Shown here piece by piece: positions 15,660 to 35,790 of a stretch of 64,000 nucleotides of DNA; the stretch's first letter is position 1; every line of letters begins with the position of its first letter. The notes under the pieces are model-generated. The model did no database searches. It saw only the letters and a program-made list of their open reading frames with translations, and was not told where the DNA came from. The stretch comes from Lancefieldella sp. Marseille-Q7238. GTDB lineage: Bacteria; Actinomycetota; Coriobacteriia; Coriobacteriales; Atopobiaceae. Location of the stretch: positions 1,244,530 to 1,308,529 of the forward strand of contig NZ_OX424407.1 of assembly GCF_949152215.1 (NCBI RefSeq). The letters run 5' to 3'. Made by a program: the position numbers and the translations under genes.

Positions 15660-15669
15660 CGTACTTGAG

Positions 15670-15745
15670 GTGCGTGTTTGTGGCGCGCACATGAGGCGAC
15701 GCGTGCGTGAGGTGTGTATATGAGTGCGTGTTTGTGGCGCGCACA
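15670..15745 (+). repeat. Direct repeat of a 22-base word in the HAD 3' spacer
   Basis: GTGCGTGTTTGTGGCGCGCA plus CA occurs at 15670-15691 and again at 15724-15745 with no mismatch. Further GCGCGCAC/ACGCGTGCG fragments surround both copies, giving a repetitive GT-rich spacer of about 130 bp. Confidence 0.7.
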
Positions 15746-15805
15746 CGGGGTGGCACGTACAATGAGACGCGCACGCATTAGGTGGTACGTGCATTACGCT
15801 TGTTT

Positions 15806-15840
15806 AACTTGCTCGGTATGCTAAGCATGCCGAGCAAGTT
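15806..15840 (+). terminator. Near-perfect stem-loop terminator
   Basis: AACTTGCTCGGTATGCT pairs with AGCATGCCGAGCAAGTT around a 1- to 3-base turn, with one G-T wobble. It is followed by TTTGCACTT on the plus strand. It is likely the transcription end of the HAD pair. Confidence 0.65.
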
Positions 15841-16016
15841 TGCACTTGAGGTTGCGTTTGCGCAGTTCTTTGGTGAGTTCTTTGGTGGAATCTTGCGCAT
15901 CGAGCAGTGCTTCTCGGCGAGTCTCTCTATGGAGCAGGAAACGACCCTCTTCGCAAGTCTCATCCCTTGCAAGTCTCGCCCCTCTGCACGATTCCAAAAG
16001 TCCTCTCCCTATGTGC

Positions 16017-16143
16017 GATTCCAAAAAAGTGCATGAGTTGTGATATGAAAACTCCTAAAAAAGGCATCAGTTGTGATAAATCCCCTAAAAATGCCATGAG
16101 TTGTGAAGTATTTTTATCACAACTGTGGCACTTTTTTGGAATC
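16017..16143. repeat. Inverted-repeat element with internal AGTTGTGATA tandem units
   Basis: Arms 16017-16045 and 16115-16143 are inverted copies that agree at 26 of 29 bases; each starts GATTCCAAAAAAGTGC. Between them the word AGTTGTGA(TA) occurs at 16036, 16069 and 16099, spaced 33 and 30 bp apart and separated by CCTAAAAA-type linkers. The right arm supplies an inverted fourth copy. An extra GATTCCAAAA lies just upstream at about 15990. Short frames through it encode SQLM(A/P/H)F repeats only and are not credible genes. It looks like a mobile or REP/MITE-type intergenic element. Confidence 0.6.
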
Positions 16144-16417
16144 GAGGCGGAGTGCACGTGTTTTTTGGAAATGGGGGGCGCACAACATAGCGTATGGGTA
16201 GACATAGCGCAGGAAACACGCGCCAATCCCCAAAGGAGCCTCAAAAGAGCCTCAAAAGAACCCAAAAGAAAAAAGCTTGCCATTAATCTCAAAATACAAG
16301 TTCACTATATGGGTTTTTCGCTATACTTGACCGTGTATGTTTGGCACTAAACATCAGCTTAAAGAAGCATAAAGAAACGAGAATTGTAGAGAATTGCAAA
16401 GAAAAAGGAGCCACACT

Positions 16418-19400
16418 ATGAGAGATGACCATAGGACATCGCGTCTTGTTCTCTCGGGTCTGCTTTCGCTTTCACTCGCTACCGCATCCTTTCCGGCAGT
16501 AGCGTTTGGCGAGCAGACCGGCGCAGCAGAAACGCCTGCTGCGGCAGCAAGCACTGAAAGTTCGACAACAGAGGACACACCTGCGCCTTCCACGCCGTCA
16601 GCTGCGGGGACTGCCGCGCCTACGGCAACCACAACAGAGACCACAACAGAGACCACAACGGAAACCTCTCCGATTGCGGGTGCAGAATCGACAGATACCC
16701 AGGGAGTTTCCGCGGTTTCAGCTGCTCCGACAGCGCTTCTCGCCCGCGCTCCGCTTGCCGTCACCGAGCTCTATGTGAACTCCGCAACCGGTGCGGATAC
16801 CAATGACGGCTCTTCTGACGCTCAGGCGTTCAAGACCATTGAGAAGGCCGTTGCCGCAGCAGCAGCCAATTCTGCGGTAACCACGATTCACGTTCAGGGC
16901 GACTTTACTCTGTCATCTCGTCAGACGCTTACCAATGTCACGCTGAACTTCTCGGGTGATACGACCGTCAAGCTCAAAAACGGCGCGGGGTTTGATCTTA
17001 AGGGTACGTCGAAGGTCAATGCGGCCGGCGCAACCGTTACCCTTGACGCTCCCAATGACGGCTATACCTTCCGTCTTTATGACTCCGCTGAAATCAATGA
17101 CGGCCACTTTGTCTTTAAGTATGGCAACAACGGCTTCGCCTTCCACATGCCCGCTGGCAGCAACGGAGCTCTCAAAGGCTCTTCTCGCGACGCTCTTTCC
17201 ATGGACATTACCAACGGTATGTTCATGAACAACTCGCAGGCCAACCTGATTGAGAACGCCAAGATTGACCAGCGCTATACCGGCGACAAGTGGCAGCTCT
17301 ACGAATGGAACGGCTTCAAGTTTGTGAACTCCGATCTCAGCGCAACTCGCCTTCCGTTCTACTTTAAGTCGCCGTTCTCTATGGATAACTCCACGTTTAC
17401 CATTGACGCGGGCGGCTTGAGATGGCAGACCGGCCTGGCTATTCCGGAGGACAGTGCTCCCGGAGAGACGCTCATTACCAACAACTCCAAGCTTACAGTC
17501 AAGAACTTCAATGTGCACTGGCGCGCAAAGGGCATTACGATTGGCAATGCAGGCGTAACGTTCCGCGTTAACAATGGTTCTGTCGTTGACGCTTCTTCCG
17601 ACAGAAACGGCGGTTTGAACGTCAATAGCGGAACCGCCATCTTTGAGGACGGTGGCACATTCCACGGCCAGGACAACTCCGGCGCGCAGGCTGGCGCGCA
17701 GGCTGGCGCGCAGCTCATTTTCAAGGGCGACTCACTCTTTGATACGCTTGCCGGAGAAGAGCAGGACAACGGTCTTGCCGATTCTACCGGCGGTTATGTG
17801 GTCATGGGTGGCACACATCGCGTGAAGTATGACGACGCCTACCAAAGTGGTAAGGCTATTCCTACCACTGACGCTGCTCACGGCAACGAGAAACTCATGC
17901 TCTTCACCCTCGCCGATGCGTCAAAGACTGAACTGACCGCAAAGCCAAAGACGGGCGGCGATTACACCTACAAGGTGAAGTACGCTTCCGCGGACGGCAA
18001 GAAGCACGTTTGGATGCCTTTTGCCAAGGTTACCGTGACGCTCAATAACGATAACGCTACCTTTGCCGATGGTTCGCATGCCGATAAGAACAGCGTTGCC
18101 ATGCGCGGCAACAAGATTGGTGATGCGACGCCTGAGAAGTCCGGCTATGACACCATTACTTCAGATACCTTCGCCAGCCCGACCGACCCCAACGGCATAT
18201 CGTTCCTCGGCTGGTTCTACAAGGATTCAAACGGCGTAGAGAAGCCCTTCTCGGCTGACGCATCTATTGATGAGGACACGGCGGTTTATGCCAAATGGGA
18301 CGCCCACACCATCGTCTACGATAACGGCAACGGCGTAACCTACACTCAGAACATCAAGGCCACCGAGGCAAACGGATCGCTCCAGAGCTACGACGACGTG
18401 GTGACCAACAAGCCCGATTTCAAAATCCCCGGCAAGACCTTTACCGGCTGGACTGTGACGCATGAAGACGGCTCTGTCTACGACGTTGCCGGCAAGCTTT
18501 TCCAGGCAAACGATTCCGTAACCTTTGGCAGCCAGGAGAAGGTCCTTTATGCCAAGGCCAACTACACGCAGGACGAGTACACGGTGCGTTTCTCGGCAAA
18601 CGGCGGTACGTTTGCGGATGCAAGCGTCTTTAAGCAGCATCCCGAGCTCTTTGATATCTCCACCGATGAGCTGGGCGGCGAAGTTGCCACCGTCAAGCAG
18701 AAGGCTCTGTACGACCAGAAGCTTTCTGCGCTTCTCGACAAGACCATCCGCGAGCAGCTTTCTCCCGATGGCATCGCAACGCGTATGGGCTTTATCCCCG
18801 GCGATCGTCTGATGTGGTATGACACGCCGCTCTTCAACACCGGCGGATACAACTTCAAGGATCATACGAGCTGGTTCTGGACTACGCCTGGTGCCGATCC
18901 GGCAATCCAGAAAGACATGACGTTCTACCTCAAGTGGACTGAGGACCCAACGGTTCAGAAGGTTGAAGCAACACTTGATCTTCCTTCCGATCTCTACGGT
19001 CCAAGCCAGGCGGATTCGCCCAATCCCTTTATGATGGACGCCGATGGCTACAAGACCTTCTCGCTGACCGGCCTTATCAATATGAAGTCCGTCCAGGAGA
19101 AGATGCAGGAGATTGAGAACCTGTATCCAAACGATGCGGCACACCCTGAGAACATCAAGCTTTCCGGTACACAGTGCACCTTCAAGGCGGAGCTGACGCT
19201 TCCTGACGGCGTGACGGTTCCCGAGAATGCGGCTGCAAGCGTTCAAGGCCTTGGCGACAAGTTCGAGGTCAAGGAGACCAAGGTCGAGGGACAGAAAGTA
19301 ACCGTGACCTTTGCGCTCAAGGGTGGCGACATTCACAACTACGCCGAGCTCAAGGCAGCCGTTGACTCTATGGGCGATGCCAATGGCGACGTCAAGGCAA

Positions 19401-34886: not shown

Positions 34887-34993
34887 CAAAGCTCGAATCC
34901 GTAAAGCGTACGACGCTCTAACTAAATAAAGTTATTGCTTCGGAGCGCTCGCTCCGTCATGCTTTCATTATGAGTTGCCCTTATCAAATGCTC

Positions 34994-35790
34994 TGCCCCG
35001 AGCCCGAAGGCCCGGGCAGCCGCTTTCTTGGCTTTGGCCTGCCCTTTGCGCCGCAAGGCGCGAGAGGCTGTAAACCACCCGCTATGCGGGTGGACGGCAA
35101 CTTGCTTTACAAAACCACCCTCCCGCCGGATATTGACGATTGCTCAGGCCGTCAAGAATCCGAGCAAGGAAGGTGGTGGTTGGCTATGGCCCAGAAGGCC
35201 TACAGCCTTTCGCACACGAAGTGGCTGTGCAAGTACCACATCGTGTTCACACCGAAGTATAGGCGCAAAGTCATCTACAACGAGTTGAGAAAGGACGTCG
35301 GGGAGATCCTCAGGAGGTTGTGCGGATACAGGGGGATCGAGGTGATCGAGGGGCATCTGATGCCCGACCACGTCCACATGCTGGTGGCGATCCCGCCGAA
35401 GTACAGCGTGTCGAGCGTGATGGAGTATCTGAAGGGTAAAAGCTCGCTGATGATCTTCGACAAACACGCGAACCTGAAGTACAAGTTCGGCAACAGGAAG
35501 TTCTGGGCGGAGGGCTACTACGTCTCTGCCGTCGGCCTCAACGAGGCGACGATCGCGAAGTACATCAGAGAACAGGAAGCCGCCGATATCGCGCTGGACA
35601 AGCTCAGCGTCAAGGAGTACTCCGACCCGTTCAAGAAGTAGCCCCGGTATGCCGGTTTAACCGGCTCGCCACGGGTCAAAGGTAATGGGGCCTGAACAAA
35701 GTGAAGGTCGGCGCCTTTAGACGCGCGCCGGCCTTCTAAGGGTTATACCCTAAGAGCAAACCACCCGCTATGCGGGTGGTCATGATTGGG
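34994..35790 (+). mobile_element. IS200/IS605-type insertion sequence
   Basis: A single TnpA gene lies between two copies of the hairpin CCACCCGCTATGCGGGTGG, at 35079-35097 and 35761-35779. This is typical of IS200-family subterminal palindromes, which are recognised as single strands. The left boundary is uncertain: it may lie near the hairpin at 35079 or include the GC-rich hairpin word at 34994-35026 that recurs at 31777. The right end abuts the YraN-like gene's last codons. No target duplication is expected for this family. Confidence 0.75.
35186..35641 (+). CDS. tnpA: IS200-family transposase TnpA
   Basis: A Y1-type HUH transposase of 151 residues, full length for the family. The HUH pair is in GHLMPDHVHMLVAIPPK, and the catalytic tyrosine is in EGYYVSAVG. 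The start at ATG 35186 (AQKAYSLSHTKWLCKYHIVFTPKYR) is the normal IS200 N-terminus; the open frame extends upstream through the left-end hairpins only by chance. The gene is intact, so the element may still move. Confidence 0.92.
   Translation: MAQKAYSLSHTKWLCKYHIVFTPKYRRKVIYNELRKDVGEILRRLCGYRGIEVIEGHLMPDHVHMLVAIPPKYSVSSVMEYLKGKSSLMIFDKHANLKYKFGNRKFWAEGYYVSAVGLNEATIAKYIREQEAADIALDKLSVKEYSDPFKK

Follow-up and report, generated by a model that had tools for sequence, protein, structure and literature searches.

The region at 16017–16143 of the window (the 64,000-nucleotide stretch of contig NZ_OX424407.1 from Lancefieldella sp. Marseille-Q7238 analyzed here) contains one copy of a dispersed, species-specific repeat with a core at 16019–16141. 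We propose, with a probability of about two in three, that this repeat is a non-autonomous, immobilised MITE- or ERIC-like palindrome of this species that was mobilised in trans by a putative protein. The ordered inverted-repeat structure that the first-pass annotation had described at this position from the letters alone is real, and the comparisons below place it in a family of 17 intergenic copies.

Architecture of the element

Alignment of the 17 + 17 copies found in two strains, together with per-position flank information, defines a 123-bp core (TTCC...GGAA; 16019–16141, plus strand) that in every copy consists of three direct units and one inverted unit; an AGTTGTG heptamer is invariant in all four. 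On the plus strand, unit 1 forms the left tip (16019–16045; AAAAAAGTGC-ATG-AGTTGTGATA), unit 2 (16052–16078) carries AGTTGTGATA at 16069–16078, and unit 3 (16082–16108) has the degenerate end AGTTGTGAAG at 16099–16108; unit 4 (16115–16141) lies inverted, on the minus strand, and forms the right tip. In unit orientation, all four approximate the consensus TCC[A/T]AAAAANGNNNNNAGTTGTGATA. The three spaced direct repeats noted earlier are indeed found at intervals of 33 and 30 bp, but only two of them are exact, since the third ends in AGTTGTGAAG. Exact AGTTGTGATA is present at 16036–16045 and 16069–16078 and, in agreement with the fourth unit proposed for the right arm, inverted at 16115–16124. 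The inverted arms were also correctly recognized: 16016–16053 and 16107–16144 are 84% complementary across 38 nt, with perfect complementarity at the tips (16019–16032 and 16128–16141) and a 3 × 3 mismatch (ATG/GTG) in the arm interior.

Conservation reaches 1–2 bp beyond the core (GA before, A/T after) and then ends sharply. We considered a left-flank target preference, given that CGA precedes 9/17 copies, and rejected it: a clear signal is present at only two bases to the left and one base to the right of the core, so these bases are read as the ends of the element itself. The core has a GC content of 34%, compared to 53% for the window. No credible coding capacity had been seen in the region; open frames cross the element (e.g., 15907–16350), but nothing supporting coding was found.

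The element is located in an intergenic region (15660–16417) whose counterpart in the genome of a sister species, G003, is < 200 bp; here it is enlarged by species-specific, repeat-rich DNA. At the window locus and at two further sites with a copy (09 and 12), the intergenic DNA is hundreds of bases longer than in G003, and these enlarged stretches, within which the element is located, are rich in short degenerate tandem repeats.

Copies within the genome

Counted in the genome and its relatives, the element proved to be multicopy rather than the single copy that would have refuted the first-pass annotation, with 17 copies in the window's genome (G000, 1,599,921 bp; BLAST-type search) and also 17 in a second genome of the species (G069). 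In G000, 14/17 copies match the aligned part of the 141-base query at 98–100% identity, and three (574659, 1407555 and 1120898) are only 83–89% identical; the layout of three direct units and one inverted unit is kept in all 17. There are 51 occurrences of AGTTGTGATA in the 1.6 Mb versus 2 of a reversed control, and 50 of the 51 fall within copies. The sole exception lies in apparently coding sequence, and the tips are likewise confined to the copies apart from two single matches; these near-tips and the lone AGTTGTGATA were considered as decayed copies and rejected, as they look like coding sequence.

Most copies have perfect 14-bp tips as terminal inverted repeats (TTCCAAAAAAGTGC/GCACTTTTTTGGAA). 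The left tip is changed in copies 14 and 15, where AGATTTAGGC replaces AAAAAAGTGC. These two copies (L020 and L021) lie 10 kb apart in opposite orientation, and their flanks are similar by eye, a similarity that fell short of E 1e-3 in BLAST. Copy 16 (L022:1460–1582) has its arm-tip triplets swapped between left and right, as if the interior had been inverted relative to the tips, and the swap is common to both strains.

As far as gene identities can be read from translations, no copy interrupts a recognizable gene at any of the 17 sites, and the neighboring genes of the copies are unrelated to one another. The copies are unevenly spread, with 10/17 between 198 and 602 kb and none between 602 and 903 kb.

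Distribution in the species and its relatives

The copies of G000 and G069 occupy 17/17 shared sites, with a match for each pair of 3–5 kb flanks, and since the strains do not differ in any insertion, no recent movement is seen. A DNA search did not find the element in 59 other relatives, and 0/138 other family genomes contained it when scanned with a 23-mer at ≤3 mismatches. A looser pattern produced one 2-mismatch match in each of 7/394 other class genomes, and these look like background. The pattern AGTTGTG-N22-27-AGTTGTG was found in 21/396 class genomes, including both genomes of the species; the 19 others were rejected as holding relatives of the element, because they have only 1–3 matches each and a reversed control matches many genomes too.

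The sister species G003 (roughly 76–88% identity in the larger aligned pieces) is without the element at 4/4 examined sites (01, 09, 10 and 12). Its intergenic regions there are shorter, and at site 09 the two flanking genes nearly abut; the insertion sites in G003 are too diverged for a base-exact empty site to be recognized at any of the four. No G003 counterpart was located for the other 13 sites, and the stretches chosen for sites 03 and 17 on presumed synteny were without a match. Given the 17 sites common to both strains and the absence from the sister species at 4/4 sites, the element entered this lineage or originated in it, then spread and became fixed before the two strains diverged. 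Among the matches listed in a literature search, no paper describes such a repeat in Atopobium/Lancefieldella.

Constraint and change among the copies

In the divergent copies 10, 16 and 17, the four AGTTGTG heptamers show 0/84 changes versus 50/285 elsewhere (Fisher 1.8e-6), and across all 34 copies 1/28 heptamer positions ever varies versus 43/95 of the others (p 1e-5); both p-values are optimistic, because the heptamer was picked after the alignment had been seen. This invariance is more suggestive of a protein that binds the sequence specifically than of an RNA fold, since all four sites are invariant even though three of them are alternatives for the same pairing partner. The stems showed no covariation either, with 1 and 0 pairs changed on both sides, no more than in shuffles, and so lend no support to the long structured RNA that the first-pass annotation had offered as one possibility.

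Between G000 and G069, the core differs by 17 substitutions in 2107 positions and 1 gap (2108 columns), compared to 156 substitutions in 8119 positions and 762 gap columns in the 250-bp flanks. This low divergence may be due to constraint or to exchange between copies, to which the swapped arm-tip triplets of copy 16 may also point. In G069, an identical two-base change (TGCC to TGTT, core positions 77–78) is present in copies 01 and 05 (L071 and L063) and is limited to these non-allelic copies of that strain. The shared change suggests gene conversion between dispersed copies, and copy identity could partly stem from this process.

Search for target duplications and a mobilising partner

The flanks gave no sign of target-site duplication: the mean best direct repeat was 3.12, compared to 3.44 in shuffled pairings, with no excess of direct repeats flanking the copies at any length from 2 to 10. 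Comparison of flanks between copies yielded one weak pair only (09L–10L). As the flanks of different copies are otherwise unrelated, insertion probably occurred separately for each copy.

No second element with both tips is present in G000, so this genome holds no autonomous relative with these ends. An exact scan of viral contigs revealed no element with these tips, and distant-mode searches of phages and plasmids found nothing. Our transposase family search covered Y1. G000 has a single Y1 transposase, which is part of a different, IS200-like element with its own distinct end palindromes, and G069 has none while carrying all 17 copies. Mobilisation by a RAYT/IS200 system was therefore rejected, and the suggestion of a REP-type element is not supported. 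The IS200/IS605-like element itself lies in the window at 34945–35785, with the Y1 transposase ORF, the genome's only Y1 match, at 34970–35641 and palindromes (CCACCCGCTATGCGGGTGG) near both ends; neither the second strain nor the sister species has it.

Folding and terminator-like features

On both strands, the predicted fold of the element is far more stable than those of 200 dinucleotide shuffles (z -7.2 and -8.2; 0 shuffles equal). Units 3 and 4 pair into a plus-strand hairpin at 16093–16129, followed after two bases by T6 at 16132–16137, so that 16093–16137 has a terminator-like appearance; the minus strand of the window copy has a matching hairpin and then T5. RNAfold energies for this copy are -16.9 kcal/mol (plus) and -13.8 to -15.6 kcal/mol (minus, depending on the stretch folded). 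A consensus terminator scan reported none at the window copy, its loop limit being 8 and the loop here 10 nt. All 34 copies have the hairpin of units 3 and 4 with T6 on the plus strand and the hairpin with T5 on the minus strand, with energies from -10.5 to -17.0 (plus) and from -8.8 to -16.1 kcal/mol (minus). Four Rfam matches were obtained, all below gathering.

The gene context of the 17 sites, again read from translations, is convergent at 7, tandem at 9 and divergent at 1, and at 16/17 sites one or both neighboring genes turn their 3' end toward the element. Set against the 20–25% seen in the window, 7/17 convergent sites represent a weak excess (p 0.04 to 0.11). At 8/9 tandem sites the element is oriented from unit 1 to unit 4 along transcription (two-sided p 0.039), a bias that may reflect strand bias; pneumococcal repeats mirror coding bias as well, according to the available portion of their description (PMC3049150). 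At sites 01 and 12, further hairpins are found nearby within the same intergenic region. A role as bidirectional terminator is plausible, though unproven, on these predicted features.

Discussion

One alternative is that the copies are host-used bidirectional intrinsic terminators of a SPRITE-like kind, retained since they bring transcription to a stop between genes; in this view unit 4 can pair with any of units 1, 2 and 3, and each unit carries a T run on its exit side. The retention of the hairpin and its T runs in every copy, the adjoining gene 3' ends, the co-orientation with transcription at tandem sites, and a core that has changed and gapped far less than its flanks between the strains are all consistent with this explanation. 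We nevertheless consider it unlikely. A single arm pair would suffice for termination, yet four heptamers are invariant in divergent copies; the arms do not covary, the share of convergent sites is not clearly above expectation, and other hairpins already lie near the element at sites 01 and 12. Moreover, the available part of the pneumococcal account attributes the same convergent bias to IS elements and other mobile repeats (PMC3049150). A reading that combines both functions, in which an array of three direct recognition sites and one inverted site was spread by a putative recombinase without target duplication and its copies were then retained as portable bidirectional terminators, the inverted arm pairing any of three partners, appears less probable still.

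The four AGTTGTGATA sites of each copy might recruit a chromosomal protein of the nucleoid or segregation machinery, mobility being incidental. Such an architectural role would fit four invariant heptamers whose spacing of 33 and 30 bp corresponds to about three turns of the helix and which are gathered into 17 clusters with hardly any free sites, but the uneven placement of the copies and the failure to find any in the sister species make it quite improbable. We give next to no credence to a leader RNA that would regulate the surface-protein gene at 16418 specifically. The element does lie upstream of that gene, as had been pointed out, at ~277 bp from its ATG; however, this is one of 17 unrelated contexts and says nothing special about the gene. 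The 16 further copies adjoin unrelated genes, the element does not precede the G003 orthologue, and the Rfam matches are all sub-gathering.

We favor the mobilised palindrome. In our proposal, the four AGTTGTGATA-type sites per 123 bp, three direct and one inverted, would bind a transposase or another DNA-binding protein acting in trans, and the copying of the element into its 17 sites between genes would predate the split of the two sequenced strains. It is now fixed and, with no partner found, probably no longer mobile. Each copy would also, as a side effect, place a putative bidirectional terminator, made of the hairpin and its T runs, between genes. The species, for which the papers listed in our literature searches describe no repeats, has in it a dispersed element of its own that is useful for typing and masking. 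With its fixed layout of four sites, the element is also a favorable system in which to look for the protein behind the movement of such orphan palindromes and to test whether they end transcription.

In its appearance and presumed working, the element resembles small orphan palindromes known from other bacteria. The MITE proposed by the first-pass annotation fits in part: like prokaryotic MITEs, the element is short, non-coding and intergenic, with terminal inverted repeats and many dispersed copies, and its absence from the sister species at 4/4 sites agrees with insertion. It departs from them in showing no target-site duplication and in the failure of the searches to reveal a partner transposase, and because the duplication was looked for and not encountered, we do not file it as a classical MITE. 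Tn7/Mu-type transposon ends contain several transposase sites, with three spaced sites at one end, which the three direct units resemble; these transposons generate 5-bp duplications, and none with the element's tips was seen. ERIC is a single large imperfect palindrome that, to our knowledge, has no known autonomous partner, and the present element shares this description. We know of no internal direct units in ERIC, in contrast to the element described here. ERIC, the enterobacterial repetitive intergenic consensus or IRU, is about 127 bp long, intergenic and dispersed, according to the part of its description available (PMC2229807). The nearly equal length and the intergenic, dispersed placement make the two alike in description, and their hosts belong to unrelated phyla. 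In the portion of the pneumococcal account at hand, SPRITE, RUP and BOX of Streptococcus pneumoniae are small, species-restricted and intergenic, as is the element here, RUP and SPRITE are AT-rich, and SPRITE in particular is terminator-like and without clear duplication (PMC3049150). By the same partial account (PMC3049150), SPRITE differs in having one 18-bp stem with AAAA/TTTT tips, BOX and RUP cause duplications that the present element is without, and BOX varies in the number of its modules, whereas exactly four units are found in all 17 copies here.
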